Assembly: GCA_016218715.1 (NCBI GenBank)
Contig: JACRDG010000076.1
Coordinates: 1 to 64,000 of the forward strand
Source of the DNA: Desulfomonile tiedjei
GTDB taxonomy: Bacteria; Desulfobacterota; Desulfomonilia; Desulfomonilales; Desulfomonilaceae
DNA length: 64,000 bases
Reading direction: 5' to 3'
In this document: positions 32,142-46,030 of the stretch, piece after piece
Layout of the letters: each line of letters starts with the position of its first letter
Numbering within the stretch: the stretch's first letter is position 1
Notes under the pieces: generated by a model
Database searches by the model: none
Told to the model about the DNA's origin: nothing
Seen by the model: only the letters and a program-made list of their open reading frames with translations
Program-made: the position numbers and the translations under genes

Positions 32142-32230
32142 TACCGATTCACCTTCAAAGCAGTAATCTGGGGAGAACCTTTTTGAAAAAAGGTTTCTCC
32201 CCAGATTACTGCTTTGACAGCGAATTGGTG
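32141..32230. repeat. palindromic element, copy 1 (also a two-way terminator)
   Basis: A near-perfect inverted repeat of about 90 nt. The core AAAGCAGTAATCTGGGGAGA pairs exactly with its complement around TTTTTGAAAAAA. The ends (ATACCGATTCACCTTC and AGCGAATTGGT) pair imperfectly. It sits between convergent genes and is related to the element at 33453. Confidence 0.85.
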
Positions 32231-32312: not shown

Positions 32313-33392
32313 CTATTTCAGTTTCTCTCCGCACTCCGTGCAGAACCTGGCTGCCGGTTCGGCAGGTTTCCCACATTTGGGGCAGTTCGTTGCCACTGGC
32401 ATTGGCGTTCCGCATTCAGGGCAAAATTTGGCAGCGCTCGGAATCGATTTCTTGCACGCACCACAGACCTTTTCCTCGGCAGCGGGCGGGGGAGGGGCGG
32501 CTTCGGCGGGCTGGGGTACCCCCTGGCGAGAAGCCGAAAGGCTGGTGGCCATCGATGCAGCCATCTGCTGCCCCATGGCTATGCCCGCGCCCATACCGAT
32601 CATCTCGCCGGCACCACCGGACCGGGCGGCCTCCGGAATCGCTTGGGCGGTCTGGAACTGGGTCAGGCGATTCAAGTCTCCGGCAAGAGCCATCTGGGAG
32701 CGGACATCCAACATCTTCTCCACTTCCGGCGGGACGGAAATATTCTCGATGACGAACATGGCCAAAGAGAGGCCGTATCGCTGAAAATCGCCATCCAGAG
32801 TCCCTCGAGCCTTTTCACCGATGCCCCGGTAGTTCGCAGCGAGATCCAGGGCAGCGATCTTGGCTTCACCCAGCATTCCCGTGAACGCGGAGACGAGCAT
32901 GCTGCGCAGCTGGCCCTCAATCTCTTCCGCGGTGTAGCACCCCAGGGTCCCTACGACTTCCTTGATGAACTTCCCCGGATCCGTGACCCGAATGCCGTAC
33001 GTTCCGAACGCTCTCAGGCGCACCACTCCCAGTTCCGGGTCCCTGAGCATGATCGGATTCTGGGTACCCCACTTCAAATCAAGGAAATTCCGGGTGCTGA
33101 CGAAATACACCTCGGCCTTGAAGGGGGATTCGAACCCGTACTTCCACGACCGCAGGGTCGTCATGACAGGCATGTTCTGAGTCGAAAGGCTGTACAACCC
33201 CGGGGCAAAGACGTCGGCAATCTGCCCCTCGTTCACGAAGACCGCAGCCTGCGTCTCGCGCACGGTGAGCTTGGCGCCCATCTTGATTTCATTGTCCTGA
33301 TCGGGGAAACGCCACACGATGACATCGCCGCCGTCATCGAGCCAGCTTATGACCTCAATCAGTTCGCCTTTGACAATATCCCAGATACCCAT
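32313..33392 (-). CDS. SPFH-domain protein with two C-terminal zinc ribbons
   Basis: A 359-residue protein of the YdjI/'virion core' SPFH group. The SPFH region spans about 25-235 ('LTVRETQAAVFVNEGQIADV', 'YGLSLAMFVIENISVPPEVE'). A Gly/Ala/Met-rich helical segment and a Pro-rich linker follow. The two zinc ribbons are CGACKKSIPSAAKFCPECG and CPKCGKPAEPAARFCTECG. No membrane helix is evident; SPFH proteins often form large membrane-associated rings. The start has AAGGAG six bases upstream. Related elements flank the gene on both sides. Confidence 0.85.
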   Translation of the reverse strand: MGIWDIVKGELIEVISWLDDGGDVIVWRFPDQDNEIKMGAKLTVRETQAAVFVNEGQIADVFAPGLYSLSTQNMPVMTTLRSWKYGFESPFKAEVYFVSTRNFLDLKWGTQNPIMLRDPELGVVRLRAFGTYGIRVTDPGKFIKEVVGTLGCYTAEEIEGQLRSMLVSAFTGMLGEAKIAALDLAANYRGIGEKARGTLDGDFQRYGLSLAMFVIENISVPPEVEKMLDVRSQMALAGDLNRLTQFQTAQAIPEAARSGGAGEMIGMGAGIAMGQQMAASMATSLSASRQGVPQPAEAAPPPPAAEEKVCGACKKSIPSAAKFCPECGTPMPVATNCPKCGKPAEPAARFCTECGEKLK

Positions 33393-33723: not shown

Positions 33724-35109
33724 TTACTCTTCGATGGTGTACTTGCCCTTGTTCGCCTCGTCGAACTCGACTTTTGCCTTGACGTACTTAGGCTTAAACC
33801 CGAGTTTCTTCAGCACGTTATATGCCATCTCCGCACGGGCGCCGGTGCTGCAATGGACGACCAGTGTCTTGTCCTTGGGCAACTCAGCTATCCGTTGCTC
33901 GAGCTCATCCAGCGGGATGTTCACGGCATTGGGCAACACGCCCTCGGCCGCTTCGGACTTCATCCGAACGTCCAGGACCACGAGATCTGCAGAAGGCTTC
34001 CCGAGGGCTCCTTTGAACGCCTCTATCTCGATCTCGCCCGGCATGAGCTTGCGAACGTAGGTTACCTTGGAAGCTGCAGGACCCTTGGCGATCTGCTTCC
34101 CGGCCTTTTCCCAGCCCTGGAAGCCTCCGATAAGGATGCTGACGTCCTTGTATCCCCATCCGGAGATCGTCTTGACCGCATCCATGGCCGATGCGATATC
34201 ACCATCCTGATTGTAGAGAATCACCGCTGCGTTCATGTATTTCGGGAATTGGGCCTTGAGGCTGTCGAGGCCGCCCTCCGGAACCGATACTGCGTTGGGG
34301 ATGTGCCCCTGTTCCACGGTCTTGGCGGGTCGCAGGTCGAGGAGAACGTACGAGCCCTTATTCTTGTCGAAATCTTCTATACCGGCGACGGTGGAGACGA
34401 CCGGGTTACCCGCTTTCTTCCATGCGGGAAGACCGGCGTGAAAGACCTTGATATTCTTGTATCCGAGCTTTGCCGCCTTCCTGGCGGCTAGTGGGCTCAG
34501 GACTCAAGAGAATCCCGCACAGTAGTAGATCTGCAAGGTCTCTTTGTCTTTGGGCAGGAGTTTCTCTGCCAAAGCATCAAATGCCGGGAAGGGCATAGGC
34601 ACTGCTGTGGCAATGTGGCCGTGGTGGTACATGGGCTCGGGCCTGCTGTCGAGAAGGACGTAATTCCCCTTCTCCGGCCCCAGGGCAACTAACTTGGCGA
34701 CGTCCTCGGCGGTCGCGAGCTGTTCCTTGGGTACTTCCAGCCCTTTTTTGACCTCGACCTCTTTCGCGAAGTTCTTGCCGTCCTTCTTGATGTAGACGAT
34801 CCTTACCGACTCCTGCTTCGGTATCTTGTTCATGGCAGGAGCGTTCTTCAAGACGGCTGAATCGTCGTAGGCGATCACCTCCATATCCGGGCCGATCTGG
34901 AGCTGGATGGTCTTTGCCTTTGTCGACACGTCGACCAATTTTCCGGCAAAGAGATTCGACTGCTTGTCGTAACCGTGGCACTTCAAGCAACTGGGGTCGG
35001 ACTTGGCCGGAAGCTGATCGTCAGCCCTGGCGGTACCCACCTGCAGCAAGCCGGAAGCGATGAGCACAGCCGTGGTCAAGCCGATCAGGGCGATTGCTCT
35101 TCCGCGCAT
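33724..35109 (-). CDS. exported c-heme/triple-rhodanese selenoprotein (in-frame UGA)
   Basis: Read through one UGA (complement of 34504-34506) this is a single 461-residue protein. A signal peptide (1-29, ending ARA) precedes a c-type heme site (Cys41-x2-Cys44-His45), a linker domain, and three rhodanese domains. Domain 1 reads YYCAGFS-Sec202-VLSPLAA, where the usual cysteine is replaced by the UGA codon. Domain 2 (ILYNQDGD) has no active-site cysteine. Domain 3 has VVHCSTGARAEMAYNV. Rhodanese sequence continues without a break on both sides of the UGA, and a SECIS-like hairpin begins right after it. The start has AAGGAG seven bases upstream. A periplasmic sulfur- or selenium-transfer/redox role is likely; the substrate is unknown. 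Without readthrough the product would stop at 201 residues. Confidence 0.85.
34465..34498 (-). promoter_or_regulatory. bacterial SECIS-type hairpin
   Basis: On the minus strand, GCCGCC-AGGAA-GGCGGC forms a perfect 6-bp stem with a G-containing 5-nt loop, capped outside by GAGC/GCUC. The loop guanines lie about 23 nt after the UGA, inside the 16-37 nt range known for bacterial SECIS elements. Confidence 0.8.
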
Positions 35110-35617
35110 TACTTCACTCCTTTCTTTCCTTATTCATTACGATCTGGATGAGGCACGAGCGGGAAGCATGGGCTATGACCAACGCCAGGCGTTGGAATCG
35201 GCACGAAAGCGCACTCCTTCCCGGTTCTAGCTCTGATCCGGTATCAGCGGAATCGAATGAAAAGCTTGCGGCGTGCGCCGGCACTGGCGATTCCGGTGGT
35301 CCCGCGGTTCCGTCCGCGCCCTGTATGTGGGGGACGAGACCAGTGTACCTACATGACTATCGTAATATATAGATAAACAAAAAGCCATTTTTTTCGGCCG
35401 GCCGGAGTTTTTTTTTGATTGCCTCCGTCAGGCATCTTGGCGGGTCCAGATCTGAAAAACGTGGATTCCAGCCTTCGCCGGAATGACGGGAAATGCCTTC
35501 GCTGCGACGGAGAGGATGATAAGACCGTGGTATGGCAATGGAAAAGTCGGGCAAGCCAAGCGGGGAATTCCCAATGCTTTCTTTTCCGCTTCGGCCTTCG
35601 GGGGTACTGAGCGGGGA
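35110..35617. other. gene-free region with a repeat
   Basis: About 500 bases. It holds an AT-rich stretch near 35360-35395, likely the promoter side of the selenoprotein gene, though no clear -35/-10 pair is visible. A GGATTCCAGCCTTCGCCGGA repeat lies at 35463-35490. Confidence 0.4.
35463..35490. repeat. short dispersed repeat (GATTCC..CGCCGGAATGACGG)
   Basis: A 28-nt hairpin-forming sequence with close relatives at 39980-40007 and 49663-49689. Such repeats are common between genes in many Proteobacteria and give rise to false open frames. Confidence 0.7.
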
Positions 35618-35857
35618 TTACGGTCGTATCTTGCGGTAGAACAGCCCCTTTCGGGGAGAGAGTGCACCATCCGAGATCTGCTTCTTGATCTTTACCAGAT
35701 CCACTTTGCGGGCTCCTCCGGGGGTGAGGAGGGCCTCACGTTTTTCGATCCCCGCGCCGATCCCCGCGACTGCCATGAGAAGGCAGAGAGCGAGCAGCGC
35801 AACGAAAATCAGATCGACGGGGCGTTCGAGGACCTGCTTAATGGCGGACCTGTTCAC
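35618..35857 (-). CDS. small single-helix membrane protein
   Basis: A 79-residue protein with one membrane helix (LIFVALLALCLLMAVAGIGA) and a basic C-terminal part. The GTG start overlaps the stop of the large upstream gene by four bases (GTGA), so translation is coupled and the two products probably act together. No family is recognised; it could be an accessory subunit of the FMN/iron-sulfur fusion protein. Confidence 0.7.
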   Translation of the reverse strand: MNRSAIKQVLERPVDLIFVALLALCLLMAVAGIGAGIEKREALLTPGGARKVDLVKIKKQISDGALSPRKGLFYRKIRP

Positions 35858-38800
35858 GGTTCCACACTCCCTGGCGGAGTCCGCGGTTGTTTAGAGCCCT
35901 GGAAGAGACAGCGGTGGCATTTGATGCAGTCCACATCTTCGGGAAACGCGACCCCCAGGTCGCAACGAGAAGGAATGGGCCGCGGAGCCACCTTCTTCAG
36001 CAGGCTCACTTTGTTGAAAAGAGCCAGAAACGCGCCGGCCGGGCAGAGGTAGCGGCACCAGAAGCGAAAGTAGACTGTCGAGGCGAAGAGGCACGCGGCC
36101 GCGAGAGCCAGCACCCAGAAGTCCATCTTCCACCCGAAGAAGTGCTGCAAGGGGCTGAAGGAGAACCAGATCGCGTCGTCGGTGACCAGGAACAGACACA
36201 TCAGCACGCCGAGGAGAACGAACTTCGTGTACCGTCCGACTCGCTCGACCTGAGCAGACGCGCGGCGCCTCACCGATCCGATCGCGAGAAACTCCTGCAA
36301 CGCGCCGAACGGGCACAGGTACCCGCAGAACCCTTGTCCCCACAGCACCGAGATTGCCAGCACCCCAACGAAGAGGAGATTCCTCCATACTGTGCCCGCC
36401 GCGGGAATCTGGCCTTTCACGATCCCCGCCGCGTCCAGACAACTGAACGGCGCATTGAGGTAAACTCCGAGAACCAGGAGTGAGAGCGCAAGGCAGACCG
36501 TCCTGGTGCTGCTGCTCCGGGTGTGGAACGCAAACACAAAGAACACGAGCAACGCGGCCACAGCCAGGAGACGCGGATCGCGAATCGCCATGCTCCACAC
36601 CGGTCGCTTCTCTGTCCGGGGCTTTTGTTCCGTGATGCCCAACAGGGGCGATGCGATCCGTTGCCCGGTCTTGTTGAGGCTCTCGGTGACTGCCCGAGCG
36701 GTGATCGTCGCGCCGCTGAGGCTGTCGATACGATCGTCCAACGGTTCCAGGATAGAGCGTCCCCGAAAGTGGTGGAGCCATTCGTCGATCCCCTTGAGGT
36801 AGGACGGAGTCTCACGAGACTCCACGAGATCGAGCCCCTTTATCTCGCCGCGCTCGGACACCGAAACCACAAGATTGATCGGTCCCCCGTACCCGCGAAC
36901 ATCACCCGCGGGAGGAATAGTGCTGAGGGTGACGGTGAAGCCACCCTGGGTCGGCGAAGTTCCCACGTAATGAGGGTAAGGTCCTTCGTGGAACGCGAAG
37001 CGATCGGATCCCGAGATCCTGGCCAGGAGATCGTCAGGGAACTTCACGACCGGCTCGCGACTGGGAGGCCCGATCAGGAGGCTCCAGGCTGCAGCCGCGG
37101 CAACGGAAAAAATCAAGAGCCACGTCAGCCGCACGTAAGGGAAGGATACCCGCGCGGAAGGTCTATACCGCGACAGGGTCTGTTCGCAGCGATCTAGTAC
37201 GGTTTCAACGACGAACAGGATGGCCGGGATGAGTAAGATCAGCGCCATTACGATGCACGCCCGTTCCATGCCCAAGAGCGGCACGAGCAGAGCCCCGGTG
37301 ATGAACGCTCCCAAAGCCGCGCCGAAGTGATCGGTCGCGTCGGTCAAGCCGGAACTCTCACCTGCGTCGCGTGCCCGTTCCAGGTGGCAGGCAGCGACAA
37401 GAGGGAATGCACTTCCGGTGAAGATCCCGGAGACGCAGACCAACGCGGAGACGATCAGTTCGATGTCCCAGGGTTCTCGGCGTGCCACGGATTCGAGAAC
37501 CGTGGTCAGGATCAGGCAATACCCGGCGAAGAGCGCGAGGCTCACGAGTAAGGCGCGCTCCTTGCGTCGAATCCGAGGGAGTAACAGACCAATGCACCAT
37601 CCGCCCGCAGCGAGCCCGGCCATGAAAGCCCCGGCCACCAGACCAATCCGTTCGAATACGTACCCGAACAGGCTCTGGTATCCGTAGATGAGCACGATCT
37701 GCATTCCCATCGCAGCAGCGCCCACCGCGGTCATGGCCAGCAGGACGCGAAATCGGGCATCAGCCCCTTCTCTCGGACCCCATCGGGCCCGGAAACCGAT
37801 CCGTGCGGCAAGAAAACAGATCATCGGGATCAGGTAGACGGTGAGCCCGCCGCGGCGCAGGGTGTTCAGTACTTCCATCCCTTCGGTCCCCGAGAATCGA
37901 CCCCAGAGAATCATCGCGAGGGACGAAGAGACAGGCGAGAAATCGGTGTTGATGAGAGGCGGCGCCCGTTCCAGTTCGCCCTTCACGAAGGCAGTCCTGG
38001 CAGGGGGCAGGATGGTATCGAAGGCCTCGGGATCGAAAAAAGTCTTGCCAAGCGTCCGATACCGGGATTTGAGCGTTCCCGGATCGAGACTCAGGAAATC
38101 CCCGGAGAGCGACGCAAAGAAGAGGGTTTCGTCGCCGGGCGTGCCGAGAACAGCAGGGAAGACCTGTTTCATCGTATGGTACACGGAACCGGCATACGAG
38201 GCCACGTCTGAGCCCCAGAAGTTGTCTGCCGACGTCACTCGGGTGAAGAACATTCCGCCCGGCCTCAAAGCCCGTGCCGCAGCCTGGAAGAACTCGAGGG
38301 TGTAGTACCGGTTCCAGAACGCGGATACCGGATCGGGTACCGTGCAAATCACCGCGTCGTAAACTTGAGGCCTGCACTGGTTCACATAGAAACGGCCGTC
38401 GCCAAAGATCATGTGCACCCGAGGATCGCCGAGAGCCTCCCGTTCACGCGAGGGCATGAACCTCTTTGCCACCTCCAGCGCTTCGGGGTCGGGCTCGATC
38501 ACATCGACCCAGTCCACTGGATACGAGAGGAGCGATACGAGAAAACTCCCAATCCCGCCGCCAATGACAAGCACTCGCCTGGTGTCGGGCTTTTGGGCCA
38601 GGATCAATGCGGCGAGGCGATCCGCGGTGGGAGCGTCGGGAAACGAGGAGACGATCTTGCCGTTCCCGAAGAGGGAAAACTGCTTGCCGAGCCGAGATAT
38701 TTCCACTTGCTGGTACGGCGTGGGCTCGGACGCGAGGAGCTTCAGTCCCGGATGTAACGCGTCCCATCTGATGCGCAGTGACGCGTCCGTCACCAGGCGT

Positions 38801-39441
38801 CCGGCAGAGGACAGGACGATCGCGGAGGTCACCAGCAGGACCGCGGCAGTGAGAACGCATCCTTTGAGCTTCCGGCTTTGTCCGTAGACCGCCGCGCCGA
38901 TCGCAAGCGGCACGTTCACCGCGGAGACGATCGCGAGCGGCGACAGGTACCGTACGAGGACGAATGTGAACATCAAGCCGCCCAGGAGGCTCCCGAGCCC
39001 CTCGAACACGTACAGCCGCGCGATGACGCGATCGTCGGTTCTCTCAAGCGCTTTGCATCCCAGGGGGAAAAGAAAGCCGGTCAGGAAGGCGGTGAGGAAT
39101 GTCCCGATCGGCACCGCGACGAGAATGCCGTGGAGCGGTATCAACTCCGCGGGAGATGCACCGCTCAGGTACGGAAGCGACCGAACCACGACGATCTGAA
39201 GGATCAGGGAAAATCCCAGGCCTGACAGCGAGTAGAGAAAAATCTCAAGAAAGGAGCCTTCCCGTTTCTTTACGAGCCATGCGCCGGCAAGAGCCCCGAT
39301 GCCGATGCCGGAGAGCCATGCGCCGAAGAAGATGCCGATGGAGATCTCGGTGCCATGGAAGATCACGAGGATCTCCCGTAACAACGAGATCTGCCCGGTC
39401 ATGGAGCACAGGCCGAACAGAAAGAACATCCACGACATCAT
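35854..39441 (-). CDS. giant fusion: spermidine-synthase-like/membrane/FMN-binding/NosR-NapH type
   Basis: A 1195-residue membrane protein. Order of parts: about seven helices (1-215); a SpeE-like Rossmann domain (about 235-440) with VLVIGGGIGSF near 290-300; a second set of about eight helices (about 500-780); an FMN-binding domain with the flavinylation motif SGAT at about 909-912; then NosR/NapH-type helices with two CxxxCP motifs (Cys1039/1043 and Cys1129/1133). It ends in C-x2-C-H-x-C without a full ferredoxin. The acidic catalytic region of aminopropyltransferases is altered (CTVPDP), so polyamine synthesis is doubtful. A likely role is electron transfer across the membrane, with covalent FMN on the outer face. 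I chose ATG 39441 (GGGAG upstream); the frame extends to 39645 but would cross the divergent gene. Confidence 0.85.
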   Translation of the reverse strand: MMSWMFFLFGLCSMTGQISLLREILVIFHGTEISIGIFFGAWLSGIGIGALAGAWLVKKREGSFLEIFLYSLSGLGFSLILQIVVVRSLPYLSGASPAELIPLHGILVAVPIGTFLTAFLTGFLFPLGCKALERTDDRVIARLYVFEGLGSLLGGLMFTFVLVRYLSPLAIVSAVNVPLAIGAAVYGQSRKLKGCVLTAAVLLVTSAIVLSSAGRLVTDASLRIRWDALHPGLKLLASEPTPYQQVEISRLGKQFSLFGNGKIVSSFPDAPTADRLAALILAQKPDTRRVLVIGGGIGSFLVSLLSYPVDWVDVIEPDPEALEVAKRFMPSREREALGDPRVHMIFGDGRFYVNQCRPQVYDAVICTVPDPVSAFWNRYYTLEFFQAAARALRPGGMFFTRVTSADNFWGSDVASYAGSVYHTMKQVFPAVLGTPGDETLFFASLSGDFLSLDPGTLKSRYRTLGKTFFDPEAFDTILPPARTAFVKGELERAPPLINTDFSPVSSSLAMILWGRFSGTEGMEVLNTLRRGGLTVYLIPMICFLAARIGFRARWGPREGADARFRVLLAMTAVGAAAMGMQIVLIYGYQSLFGYVFERIGLVAGAFMAGLAAGGWCIGLLLPRIRRKERALLVSLALFAGYCLILTTVLESVARREPWDIELIVSALVCVSGIFTGSAFPLVAACHLERARDAGESSGLTDATDHFGAALGAFITGALLVPLLGMERACIVMALILLIPAILFVVETVLDRCEQTLSRYRPSARVSFPYVRLTWLLIFSVAAAAAWSLLIGPPSREPVVKFPDDLLARISGSDRFAFHEGPYPHYVGTSPTQGGFTVTLSTIPPAGDVRGYGGPINLVVSVSERGEIKGLDLVESRETPSYLKGIDEWLHHFRGRSILEPLDDRIDSLSGATITARAVTESLNKTGQRIASPLLGITEQKPRTEKRPVWSMAIRDPRLLAVAALLVFFVFAFHTRSSSTRTVCLALSLLVLGVYLNAPFSCLDAAGIVKGQIPAAGTVWRNLLFVGVLAISVLWGQGFCGYLCPFGALQEFLAIGSVRRRASAQVERVGRYTKFVLLGVLMCLFLVTDDAIWFSFSPLQHFFGWKMDFWVLALAAACLFASTVYFRFWCRYLCPAGAFLALFNKVSLLKKVAPRPIPSRCDLGVAFPEDVDCIKCHRCLFQGSKQPRTPPGSVEP

Positions 39442-39585
39442 CGTCGGGCTCCCGGTCGTTGCATAGGGTGAACCTGGTTCTATCACTTTGCAGTCGGGCA
39501 GCCAAGGCTGCTCTGGTCCGCGGAGCGGCTGATGATTAGCGTACGGGATGAGAGCGACGACCGAGAAGGTTCGAAGGAGGCTCCC

Positions 39586-39777
39586 ATGCTGAGTACAAAA
39601 GATATGGCTCTCTGGATCGATGCGAGAATCTGCGGCTCCTGTCATCAGGGGTACACCTGCAACGAGTACGACTGCGAGCAGGCACGTAAGATCGCGGATA
39701 TGCTTTCACGAATGACCGTGTTCAAAGGCAAGGACAGCGAGGGAAAAGACGTTTCCGGGCTGCTGGTGCCCGACTAA
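39586..39777 (+). CDS. small cysteine-rich protein
   Basis: A 63-residue protein with ICGSCHQGYTCNEYDCEQAR in its first half: four cysteines and a histidine that could bind a metal or cluster. A CxxCH string is present, but no signal peptide, so a c-type heme is unlikely. The start has GGAGG five bases upstream. It is divergent from the giant fusion gene and ends at a strong hairpin. No family recognised. Confidence 0.65.
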   Translation: MLSTKDMALWIDARICGSCHQGYTCNEYDCEQARKIADMLSRMTVFKGKDSEGKDVSGLLVPD

Positions 39778-40008: not shown

Positions 40009-40182
40009 GATGAGGCCCTCTTTCTTGTTGTCCCGGTTAAGCACCCAAGTGCCCACGCGCAAGCGAATGGTTTCCGCCGTTGACGGATTTCCCGTGAGTT
40101 CTGTCTCCAATCGGCTATAATCGATCCGCGCCAAGGGACAAGTCCCGACTTGTTTGCCTCCCGGCCAAAAGGAGGGGTGTTC

Positions 40183-41319
40183 ATGTATAAATCCTTTCGC
40201 GTGAAGAACTACCGCTGCTTCAAGGACCTGACCGTCGGGCCTCTGGAACGCGTGAACTTGATCGCAGGCAAGAACAATGTCGGGAAGACGGCTCTGTTGG
40301 AGGCCATCTGGTTGTTCCAGGAATACCTCACTCCGCCTGTCGAGATCCTGGTTCCACTGTTTCGTGGCCTCGACAGCCTAGGTCCGAGAGATTTGATGGC
40401 TTCATTGTTCATCAATTTCGAGGACACCGAGACAATTGAAATGTTGGTAGGGCACCCCGATGACCGGTCCGCGCGTCTCAGGTTAACCGTGAGTCGGGCG
40501 AGAGAGGCTTTCGACATAGCGCCGTTTCGGATTACCGTAAGTGAGCCAGCCGAGAGGGCTGAGGACTCAAGTAACAGAAAGCATTCCGTGGGCAACGACC
40601 CATCCCATCCCCAACAGGATCTCAGAACACCTACCGGAGCATTTCCTCCCGAAGTGATTCTGCAACATGAATATCAGTCACCCGATGGCTTGGCGACCGG
40701 AGGGCTGATGGGCGTCAGCAGTGAGGGACTGAGGCGTGCTTTCTCAATTGGCGCTGGGCAGACAAGGGTTCCTTTCTTGGTGGGTAATCGTGAGATAAAT
40801 CCGCTCGACCTGGCTGAGAAATGGAGCGAACGAGCTGAACTCGGGGATGACAAGAAAGTTATTGAGACCCTAAGAATTATCCAGCCAGACCTGCGCGGAT
40901 TGCGGGTTCTCTACAAGAAGCGAAAACCGATCATTGAGGTTGACTTAGGCGTGGAGCGACTCATGCCACTGGCGCTCTCGGGTGATGGCATGAGAAGCCT
41001 CCTGCTCTTCGCAGTCCTTCTCCTTCAAGCCAAAGGGGGAGTGTTCTTAGTGGATGAGATCGAAAACGGCCTGCATCATTCGGTTATGAAAGACGTCTGG
41101 AAGGCGCTTGCGGCCTCTGCCAGAAGCTTTGACGTGCAGATTTTCGCGACCACGCATAGCCACGAGTGCATTCGGGCTGCTCATGAGGCCTTCTGCGAAA
41201 GCCCTGAGTATGATTTCCGCATGCATCGTCTGGACCGGATTGACGACACCATCCAATCGGTCACCTACGATAAGGAGACCTTGGGCTACTCACTTGAGGC
41301 CGGCTGGGAGGTGCGTTAG
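40183..41319 (+). CDS. AAA ATPase of OLD/PARIS type
   Basis: A 378-residue RecF/OLD-like ATPase. Walker A is GKNNVGKT (residues 29-36). The Q-loop region follows. The signature ALSGDGMRSLLLFAVLLLQA, Walker B VFLVDEIENGLHHS and switch FATTHSHEC are all present. It has no fused nuclease; the TOPRIM domain is in the next gene, which starts within the stop codon (TAGTG). Such pairs act in phage defence (class 2 OLD-like, PARIS AriA/AriB). The ATG at 40183 gives 'MYKSFRVKNYRCF', the normal N-terminus for this group. Codon use is less GC-biased than in neighbours, hinting at acquisition. Confidence 0.82.
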   Translation: MYKSFRVKNYRCFKDLTVGPLERVNLIAGKNNVGKTALLEAIWLFQEYLTPPVEILVPLFRGLDSLGPRDLMASLFINFEDTETIEMLVGHPDDRSARLRLTVSRAREAFDIAPFRITVSEPAERAEDSSNRKHSVGNDPSHPQQDLRTPTGAFPPEVILQHEYQSPDGLATGGLMGVSSEGLRRAFSIGAGQTRVPFLVGNREINPLDLAEKWSERAELGDDKKVIETLRIIQPDLRGLRVLYKKRKPIIEVDLGVERLMPLALSGDGMRSLLLFAVLLLQAKGGVFLVDEIENGLHHSVMKDVWKALAASARSFDVQIFATTHSHECIRAAHEAFCESPEYDFRMHRLDRIDDTIQSVTYDKETLGYSLEAGWEVR

Positions 41320-42685: not shown

Positions 42686-42918
42686 GACCTCTCGGTACAA
42701 AGGTCCCATAATGGCAGAGCATGCGCAAGTATTCCATCATAGGGTGTTGTTCGGCCCGCGGTCAACCCGGACCGCCCGGCGCACGCCTCTCCTTGATTTT
42801 CGCGATTCCCGATCATATACTGATTTCATTAGGTGATTTCCTCTCCGGCGGCACGCAAGGGGCGCTCAGCGGCCGACCGTTTCATAAGATTTCGCACTCA
42901 GATGCTGAAGTTGGTGAA

Positions 42919-43019
42919 CCCTCACCGTGTCCCTCTCCCGCGGAGAGAGGGGACTCTCAGTGGCGCCGGCATCTTGCCGGTGATTTCTCCATCCCTCTGG
43001 GCGAGGGATGGGGTGAGGG
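42919..43019. repeat. inverted-repeat element before amrS
   Basis: CCCTCACC and GGTGAGGG bound about 100 nt with internal stems (CTCTCCCGCGGAGAGAGGGG; GGCATCTTGCCGG; CCCTCTGGGCGAGGG). The middle resembles the REP-like repeat at 57809. The gap 42710-43107 holds no gene that I can support. Confidence 0.65.
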
Positions 43020-43107
43020 CTTCCGGATTCTTCGTCTGACAAAGCAATCGTTTCACGCGGAACCTCCGCGATGCATTGTGGACGCTTCGCTCAACGGGTC
43101 CGAATTC

Positions 43108-44109
43108 ATGGCACGAACCGACGTCTTCCTCTGCGAGCTTTGTCCGAAAGGGTGCCGCATCACCGAAGGCCAGAGCGGCGATTGCAAATCCCGGATCGTC
43201 GTGGACGGTGAGCTGCGAGCGGTGACGTACGGAAGGCCGTGCACACTGCACATCGATCCGATTGAGAAGAAGCCGCTGTTTCACTTCCTGCCCGGAACTT
43301 CGATCCTCTCTCTCGCCACCGCAGGCTGCAATCTCCACTGCAAGTTTTGCCAGAACTGGACTATCTCGCAGGCGGCTCCGGAAGATCTGCGCACCATGGA
43401 CCTTCCTCCCGAAAAAGTAGTTCAGGTCGCTCAGGCCCAGCGCTGTCTTTCGATCGCGTATACGTACACGGAGCCGGTGGTTTTCTACGAGTACGTTCTC
43501 GACACCTCGACCCTGGCCCGGCAACAGGGACTGCGCAACGTCACCGTCACCGCGGGCTCGATCAACCGAAAGCCCATGGAAATGCTCTGCAGTGTGGTAG
43601 ACGCGTCCAATACCGATCTGAAGGCGTTCAGTGACACCTTCTACCGGGAACTCTGCGACTCAACCCTCAAACCCGTGCTGGACGGCATGGTCGTCATGAA
43701 GGAACACGGTGTCTGGTTGGAGATTACCAATCTGGTCGTCCCTACCTTCAACGACGACCTCGACATGATTCGCAAGATGTGCCGGTGGATTCTGGCAAAC
43801 CTCGGCGCGGACACGCCGTTGCACTTCAGCCGGTTTCATCCGATGTACAAGTTGAGGAACCTGCCCCCGACGCCGGTAGACACCCTCATGAATGCGAGAA
43901 AAGAAGCCCTCGACATAGGCTTGCGATACGTGTACGTCGGCAACGTTCTCGGTTCGGGGGCGGAACACACATGCTGCCCCAGCGACGGCACCCTCCTTAT
44001 TAAGAGGCTGGGCCATTCGATCCTGGAAAACAACCTGGTCGACGGCAAGTGTCCCAAGTGCGGATCGAAGATCCCGGGAATATGGAGCCACGATGCGCAG
44101 CGATCCTGA
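43108..44109 (+). CDS. amrS: AmmeMemoRadiSam system radical SAM enzyme
   Basis: A 333-residue radical SAM protein. N-terminal cysteines CELCPKGC form an extra metal motif. The radical SAM motif is CNLHCKFC (near residues 74-81). Then come SIAYTYTEPVVFYEYV, VTAGSINRKPMEML and HFSRFHPMY, typical of AmrS. A C-terminal zinc ribbon-like segment (CCPSDG...CPKCG) is present. Its substrate is unknown. It is next to a fused Memo-AMMECR1 gene, which completes the three-part AmmeMemoRadiSam set. The start is uncertain: the frame opens at 42721, but the ATG at 43108 gives a normal N-terminus. Confidence 0.88.
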   Translation: MARTDVFLCELCPKGCRITEGQSGDCKSRIVVDGELRAVTYGRPCTLHIDPIEKKPLFHFLPGTSILSLATAGCNLHCKFCQNWTISQAAPEDLRTMDLPPEKVVQVAQAQRCLSIAYTYTEPVVFYEYVLDTSTLARQQGLRNVTVTAGSINRKPMEMLCSVVDASNTDLKAFSDTFYRELCDSTLKPVLDGMVVMKEHGVWLEITNLVVPTFNDDLDMIRKMCRWILANLGADTPLHFSRFHPMYKLRNLPPTPVDTLMNARKEALDIGLRYVYVGNVLGSGAEHTCCPSDGTLLIKRLGHSILENNLVDGKCPKCGSKIPGIWSHDAQRS

Positions 44110-44443: not shown

Positions 44444-46030
44444 ATGAAGAGAGCGATTTTGTTGATGGGCGGGGTCGCGCTGGTCGCGACGGTCGCATTC
44501 GTCGGTCGAGGCTTGGTCTCCTCCGCCGCGAGCAGCGAGACGGTCACGAGCAGCGAGAAAGTGAGACAGCCCGCGGTCGCTGATACGTTCTATCCCGCGG
44601 ATAGGGAAAAGCTGCGCGCGATGGTAGTCGATTCGCTCAAGGCCGCGACGAAAGTGGATTTTCAGAAACCGATCAAGGCCATTCTGGCTCCTCATGCAGG
44701 TTACGTCTACTGCAGCGGGACGTTGGCCGCGGCATACAAACAGATCGAAGGCCCTGCTTTTCGGTACCACACGGTCATTCTCATCGGCCCCAGCCACCGA
44801 TTCCCAACCAAGGCTGCGGCGGTGAGTTCCGCTGAGCGCTGGGAGACTCCGCTCGGTTCGGTGCCCGTGGACACCGGCCTCGCCAGGAAACTGACGGAAA
44901 CGGGAGGCAGGATCCAATTCGACGATCGGGCTCATGTTGCCGAACATTGTCTGGAAGTCCAATTGCCGTACCTGATCGTCGCAGCGGGAGGCAAGCCGTT
45001 CAAGATTGTGCCGTTGCTCACCAACAGCAGCGATCCTCTGGACCACGAGACGGTCGGCCGTGCGGTTGCAGAGATCGCGGACGATACCGGGACGCTCATC
45101 GTGCTATCGTCGGATCTGAGCCACTATCCACAGGCATCGGTGGCCGAAGAGGTCGACCGGCAGATCCTCTCCGGGTTGACGTCTCTCGACGCGAACACGC
45201 TTCGCGAGGCGAGCGAGAAGATACTGGCGAGCCGACCGGCAGGCCTTTCAACAGCCATGTGCGGGCTGGACGCGGCCCTTTGCTTGACGCGGGCCGCTCC
45301 GCTCTTGGGGATCACGGAAGGGAAGATCGTCAATTACTCCCATTCCGGCATGACGAGCGGTGACCCCCAGCGCGTGGTGGGGTACGCAGCAGCGGTCTTC
45401 ACCGGTGAGGGCAAGATATCGCGTGCGGCAGCAATCCCGCCTCTCACGCTGGCATTCAGCTCTCAGAGTCGCAAGGAACTGATCTCCATGGCTCGGGAGG
45501 CAGTGCAGGCCGCAACGGCAGGGAACTGGGTCTCGCACGACCCGAGCCGCAACCCGGAGCTGCAGGTCAAGGCCGGGTGCTTCGTGACGCTCAAGAACCA
45601 GGGGCGACTGAGAGGATGCATCGGCTGCTTCCAGACTGACGAGCCTCTGTGGAAGACTGTCCGAGAGATGGCTGTCTCATCTGCGACCATGGACGCTCGC
45701 TTTCGGCACGATCCGATCACGACTGGGGAGCTTCCCCACCTTGATGTGGAGATTTCCGTCCTGTCCCCGCTTCGGCCTATTGCGCGGCCGTTGGAGGAAC
45801 TGAAGCTCGGACGTGACGGCATTGTGATACAGGACAAAGGGCGGAAGGGGACATTCCTTCCGCAGGTGGCACAACAAACCGGTTGGAGCCTGGAGGAGTT
45901 CCTCGGTCACTGTTCCCATGACAAGGCCGGTATTGGATGGGATGGGTGGAAGAGTCCGACGGCCCGGATCTTCGCCTATACGGCCACGATCGTCAGCGAG
46001 AAAGATTTCCCTGGATCGGATCGCGAATAG
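44444..46030 (+). CDS. fused Memo-like/AMMECR1 protein with signal peptide
   Basis: A 528-residue fusion of AmmeMemoRadiSam proteins B and A. Residues 1-30 are a signal peptide or anchor. The Memo (AmrB) domain runs about 40-320, with APHAGYVYCSG, LIGPSHRF, HCLEVQLPYL and SSDLSHY carrying the metal-binding histidines. The AMMECR1 (AmrA) domain runs about 340-520, with CFVTLKNQGRLRGCIGCFQ. Memo and AMMECR1 proteins are normally cytosolic and separate, so the export signal and fusion stand out. Function unknown; a link to amrS is supported by position. Confidence 0.87.
   Translation: MKRAILLMGGVALVATVAFVGRGLVSSAASSETVTSSEKVRQPAVADTFYPADREKLRAMVVDSLKAATKVDFQKPIKAILAPHAGYVYCSGTLAAAYKQIEGPAFRYHTVILIGPSHRFPTKAAAVSSAERWETPLGSVPVDTGLARKLTETGGRIQFDDRAHVAEHCLEVQLPYLIVAAGGKPFKIVPLLTNSSDPLDHETVGRAVAEIADDTGTLIVLSSDLSHYPQASVAEEVDRQILSGLTSLDANTLREASEKILASRPAGLSTAMCGLDAALCLTRAAPLLGITEGKIVNYSHSGMTSGDPQRVVGYAAAVFTGEGKISRAAAIPPLTLAFSSQSRKELISMAREAVQAATAGNWVSHDPSRNPELQVKAGCFVTLKNQGRLRGCIGCFQTDEPLWKTVREMAVSSATMDARFRHDPITTGELPHLDVEISVLSPLRPIARPLEELKLGRDGIVIQDKGRKGTFLPQVAQQTGWSLEEFLGHCSHDKAGIGWDGWKSPTARIFAYTATIVSEKDFPGSDRE

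Follow-up and report, generated by a model that had tools for sequence, protein, structure and literature searches.

The minus-strand gene at positions 33724..35109 (35109→33724) of the window, a 64,000-nucleotide stretch of a Desulfomonile tiedjei contig, almost certainly encodes a real selenoprotein, as judged from comparison of its sequence with those of its relatives. The gene comprises 461 codons, one of them for Sec, and a stop codon. With translation table 11, the frame is read as two ORFs, 34504-35109 (201 amino acids) and 33724-34317 (197 amino acids). When TGA is read as U, the frame is continuous and gives one 461-amino acid protein with U at residue 202, within YYCAGFS-U-VLSP. The initial annotation had proposed a single gene split by an in-frame UGA. 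This proposal and the coordinates given with it are correct; the strand, which was absent from it, is minus, and the features described below lie on the minus strand unless marked otherwise. A predicted Shine-Dalgarno-like sequence, AAGGAG, is seen in the sequence itself at 35117..35122, 7 nt before the ATG. The architecture of the protein is a predicted signal peptide, a CxxCH motif, a CusF-like OB domain and three rhodanese domains.

The UGA codon for Sec202 is at 34504..34506. We compared the window protein with 10 full-length relatives (56-68% identical), which together with it form a same-family set of 11 members. In this set, codon 202 is TGA in nine members and TGT (Cys) in two, and the conservation extends over the full length, on both sides of the UGA. 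Because nine separate genomes have UGA at the same codon, we accepted it without resequencing. In a 48-member alignment, column 202 is Sec in 34 members, Cys in 12 and another residue in 2. Thus, the Cys or Sec that was to be looked for in homologues at this column is present in 46 of 48, and the two exceptions have a shortened loop. In one lineage (L075 and L080), the shortened loop of domain 1 reads C-V-G-G-C and D-I-G-G-C, with only Gly aligned at column 202; in L080, Asp replaces Cys197.

SECIS-like hairpin and selenocysteine machinery

A SECIS-like hairpin, GCCGCC-AGGAA-GGCGGC, is located at 34472..34488. Measured from the UGA, the hairpin begins 15 nt downstream and its loop 21 nt downstream, spacings that fit the usual range for bacterial SECIS elements. 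The fold of 70 nt of this gene had a z-score of -3.5 against dinucleotide shuffles. Against synonymous-codon shuffles, the z-score for 50 nt was only -1.5, so folding energy does not decide the case for this gene taken singly. With such shuffles, many individual genes scored weakly (mean z-score -0.9 for Sec genes and -0.3 for Cys genes). Because the energy z-scores are weak, we relied on the pairing register, the loop G and the Cys genes as a control.

Wider searches gave matches in 38 of 395 genomes of the phylum, 69 of 93 genomes of one family and 76 of 277 genomes of one class. We analysed 102 homologues, 57 with Sec and 45 with Cys, a set that leaves out 13 loci missed by the motif pattern, including Sec genes L028, L068-L070 and L084 and the shortened-loop genes L075 and L080. 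All 57 Sec genes form the four core pairs in the register i+j=46, with C-G, U-A, U-G, G-C and A-U as variants, and compensatory changes are present among these pairs. Loop position 22 is G in 57/57 Sec genes versus 5/45 Cys genes. The core pairs and the loop G occur together in every Sec gene and in none of the 45 Cys genes; because this combination was derived from the Sec set, the Cys genes are a fair control. On the tree, the Sec/Cys distribution needs at least 10 changes, whereas the haem motif needs only 3. In eight of eight independent pairs on supported branches, the hairpin switches together with Sec (sign test, p 0.008). Within the same family, the nine Sec genes retain the stem CCGCC/GGCGG and the two Cys genes have a broken one; in L024, one of the nine, the stem carries a compensatory change from C-G to U-A. 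Thus, the perfect 6-bp stem with loop AGGAA, initially proposed to be a bacterial SECIS, is a SECIS-like hairpin that is shared by the Sec homologues and missing from the Cys homologues.

Rfam gave no SECIS match; its hits near the gene were all below threshold, mostly to microRNA models, and fell on a dispersed palindromic repeat. This repeat is at 32143-32229, between a TauE-like gene and an SPFH gene, and a search of the genome for it gave 65 matches, of which many are one place counted on both strands. One genome, G237, encodes both a Cys and a Sec paralogue (L090 and L092) of a shorter, non-haem form that lacks the OB domain region. A search of a plasmid collection for the protein gave no match.

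We searched the genome (5.55 Mb, 124 contigs, estimated to be 99.99% complete) for the Sec machinery, as had been suggested. Profile matches were obtained for selA (590 bits), selB (384 bits) and selD (370 bits), and a tRNA-Sec was found with 71.3 bits and by ARAGORN as well. All four are above the curated cut-offs. SelB would decode codon 202 (UGA) as selenocysteine, aided by the hairpin just downstream. The selD of this genome (L095:974-2023 (+), contig C85) is itself a selenoprotein gene with an in-frame TGA, which places Sec near the N-terminus.

Rhodanese domains and the Cys197-Sec202 loop

Three rhodanese domains had been proposed, and Pfam PF00581 matches three stretches of the protein (151.9 bits in all); matches to the rhodanese fold reach Z 17.4. 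Domain 1 (approximately residues 124-240; 34390..34740; fold matches Z 17) contains Cys197 and Sec202. Domain 2 (approximately residues 241-345; 34075..34389) lacks a catalytic Cys: in the 48-member alignment, column 300 never has Cys, the residues there being S, D, G, N, A or T. Domain 3 (approximately residues 355-445; 33775..34047) has the canonical Cys420-S-T-G-A-R, with Cys420 and Gly423 in 48/48 members and Arg425 in 47/48. By these residues, domain 3 is intact and domain 2 is dead, as the initial annotation had read them. Domain 3 may act as a conventional sulfane-sulfur carrier and domain 2 as a structural spacer.

Domain 1 differs from that earlier reading, in which Sec took the place of the reactive cysteine. 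In alignments, Cys197 (of YYC; 34519..34521) is the counterpart of Cys420 in domain 3 and of the YC in solved rhodaneses such as the rhodanese-like protein 6mxv, and the position is Cys in 47/48 members. The alignment thus rules out replacement of the catalytic Cys by Sec: the canonical nucleophile position is held by Cys197, and Sec202 follows it five residues further along the same active loop. Therefore, domain 1 is a two-chalcogen site (C-x4-U) and not a Sec-for-Cys rhodanese. In other words, the proposed set of a Sec site, an empty site and a Cys site stands for domains 2 and 3 but not for domain 1, which has both Cys197 and Sec202. The nucleophile and the conserved Gly that follows the helix lie 19 residues apart in domain 1 (197/216) and 17 residues apart in domain 3 (420/437). 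Thus, the loop of domain 1, inside which Sec202 lies, is two residues longer than that of domain 3.

Cys197 and Sec202 probably act together as a pair. This is supported by TsoB of the same genome (L178:241-2058 (-), contig C115; 979 bits versus a cut-off of 805), which has two Sec codons in its rhodanese loop, YU-AGLT-U-VRS (U-x4-U), and therefore Sec at both positions. In the pair, Cys197 would accept a sulfane sulfur (or selenium) atom as in a rhodanese, and Sec202 would resolve it by forming a selenenylsulfide with Cys197, with release of the reduced atom. The roles might be reversed: Sec202 would then be the nucleophile and accept the sulfur or selenium atom, with Cys197 as the resolving partner. 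A selenol is usually the better nucleophile, and the longer loop of domain 1 relative to that of domain 3 may let residue 202 reach the pocket. However, Cys197 holds the canonical position and is better conserved (47/48) than residue 202, and we regard this reversal as somewhat unlikely.

The protein belongs to a known kind, the rhodanese-like selenoproteins. Reviews list five forms of these by domain and short motif, among them form 1 (PF00581, UxxS, example WP_010941598.1), form 3 (CxU, NF041203) and form 5 (TsoB, UxxxxU) (PMC13188914; PMC9312934). The window protein shares the rhodanese domain with form 1, and its UVLS at residues 202-205, in which residue 205 is Ser in 44/48 members, fits UxxS. 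Form 1 was reportedly described in a 2005 paper on bacterial SECIS elements. WP_010941598.1 was compared by accession and motif alone and may or may not be of the same family; full-length homology to it would make the window protein a further member of form 1.

TsoB is the nearest NCBIfam selenoprotein relative of domain 1. Its model NF045694 matches the rhodanese part only (residues 128-249) with 73 bits, under the cut-off of 805, and the two proteins have the same loop. However, the single rhodanese domain of TsoB (rhodanese/DsbD fusion-like) is joined to DsbD and thioredoxin-like parts, which are absent from the window protein, and the first loop position is Sec in TsoB and Cys in the window protein. 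NF041203 (73 bits, under the cut-off of 115) likewise has a rhodanese domain with Sec near Cys, but it describes a single domain of 126 positions with CxU instead of C-x4-U. Among solved structures, 1yt8, YnjE (2wlr, 3ipo) and EanB (6ktv and others) also have tandem rhodanese domains, but their identity is about 20% or less and is limited to the rhodanese part; we know of no Sec or c-haem in these proteins. In the NCBIfam search, no curated model covered the whole protein.

N-terminal region and neighbouring genes

The predicted signal peptide covers approximately residues 1-30 (35020..35109; MRGRAIALIGLTTAVLIASGLLQVGTARA-DD), with a hydrophobic helix at residues 3-21 in the model, and we infer from the sequence that the protein is exported. 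A c-type haem motif had been proposed, and CLKCH is indeed present at residues 41-45 (34975..34989), after the signal-peptide-like N-terminus. It is followed by an OB-fold domain (approximately residues 50-122; 34744..34962), assigned from the AlphaFold model (pLDDT 93.1 for residues 31-128) and from matches to solved structures. Haem is probably attached covalently at CLKCH, and this N-terminal c-haem on the OB domain may trade electrons with the Cys197/Sec202 pair. A separate clade without CxxCH keeps the OB and rhodanese parts and the Cys/Sec loop, and lipobox-like signals occur in some members of this clade. Because a whole clade without the haem motif keeps this loop, the core chemistry does not require haem.

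The OB domain bears on what the protein handles. Among solved structures, it matches the Cu/Ag chaperones CusF and SilF best, with CusF 2vb2 at the top (Z 9.0, rmsd 1.8, 67 aligned residues, approximately 10% identity). The protein could therefore be a real selenoprotein that handles periplasmic selenite, tellurite or metal ions and not sulfane sulfur: the CusF-like domain would bind metal, and the haem or the Sec site would reduce it. A Geobacter gene cluster gives a parallel, since it encodes the rhodanese-like protein ExtH (49.0 kDa), the Sec-containing c-type cytochrome ExtKL, and ExtI, which has been linked to selenite/tellurite reduction (PMC5877670). However, OB folds are common, the identity to CusF is low, and no ext-like cluster was seen in the window, the neighbours being an SPFH gene and an FMN/FeS fusion. 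Metal or oxyanion handling is therefore unlikely. We also considered whether ExtH is this selenoprotein, being rhodanese-like and similar in size to the window protein. This candidate was rejected because the source names ExtKL as the selenoprotein of the cluster (PMC5877670); Sec and the haems sit in ExtKL and not in ExtH, which was compared by description alone.

The CxxCH motif might instead be a metal site or a disulfide, with no haem electron transfer. It is a lone motif beside an OB domain, outside any recognisable cytochrome fold, and is missing from many relatives. On the other hand, CxxCH is found throughout the haem clade and in 11/11 same-family members, another lineage (f30) has Cx4CH, a spacing that occurs in cytochrome c3, most members carry one or the other motif, the protein is predicted to be exported, and the genome encodes two cytochrome c assembly proteins. 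We consider a non-haem role of the motif quite unlikely, and covalent haem attachment remains the preferred reading.

Downstream, an SPFH/zinc-ribbon gene (32313..33392, minus) is a possible neighbour in the same unit; it adjoins in 5/9 same-family loci, including the window, and is 66-75% identical among them. Upstream, a spermidine synthase-like, FMN-binding and NapH/NosR-like 4Fe-4S fusion (35854..39645, minus) forms one frame of 1263 amino acids, of which the NapH/NosR-like 4Fe-4S part is the membrane part. It adjoins in 3/9 same-family loci, including the window (57-59% identical), and could carry electrons to the periplasm. The neighbours are weakly conserved, and the synteny is too weak for naming a substrate.

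Further upstream, the window contains an AmmeMemoRadiSam system (42721-44109 and 44444-46030, (+)), in which a radical SAM enzyme is encoded beside a fused B (Memo) and A (AMMECR1) gene. An AAA-type ATPase gene at 40150-41319 (+) has a weak likeness to the anti-phage MADS3 ATPase, far below the cut-off, and is directly followed by a frame of 248 amino acids with no NCBIfam match.

Proposed function and significance

Sec insertion, the predicted architecture and the near-invariant Cys197 with Sec or Cys at position 202 are established by comparison among homologues. The explanation as a whole, namely an exported selenoprotein in which a haem-coupled Cys197/Sec202 pair performs sulfane-sulfur or selenium redox chemistry, appears likely to us. 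A haem-coupled reductase role is suggested tentatively, with the balance leaning slightly against it. The more specific proposal, a periplasmic haem-linked family in which the Cys-Sec pair of a rhodanese loop serves as a persulfide or perselenide reductase, is possible but on balance somewhat unlikely. There is hardly any chance that the UGA is a sequencing error or the true stop codon of a decayed gene: although the frame as it stands gives two table-11 ORFs, the conserved UGA, present in nine same-family genomes and 57/102 members and always with the hairpin, and the protein conservation that persists beyond it rule out this explanation.

A haem-linked selenoprotein with three rhodanese domains was not described in the literature searched, which excludes most subscription papers. 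Sec in this protein is a second chalcogen, placed five residues past the standard cysteine in a protein with a probable haem. The family occurs widely in the phylum, and Sec and Cys have been exchanged ten times or more, each exchange being accompanied by gain or loss of the SECIS hairpin. Ordinary annotation would split or truncate many such genes. The natural series of C-x4-C, C-x4-U and U-x4-U (TsoB), in haem and non-haem versions, offers a way to test what selenium adds to sulfur-transfer chemistry. If the proposed function is true, a sulfur-transfer fold would have been turned into a reductase, and one protein would both carry and reduce sulfane sulfur or selenium.
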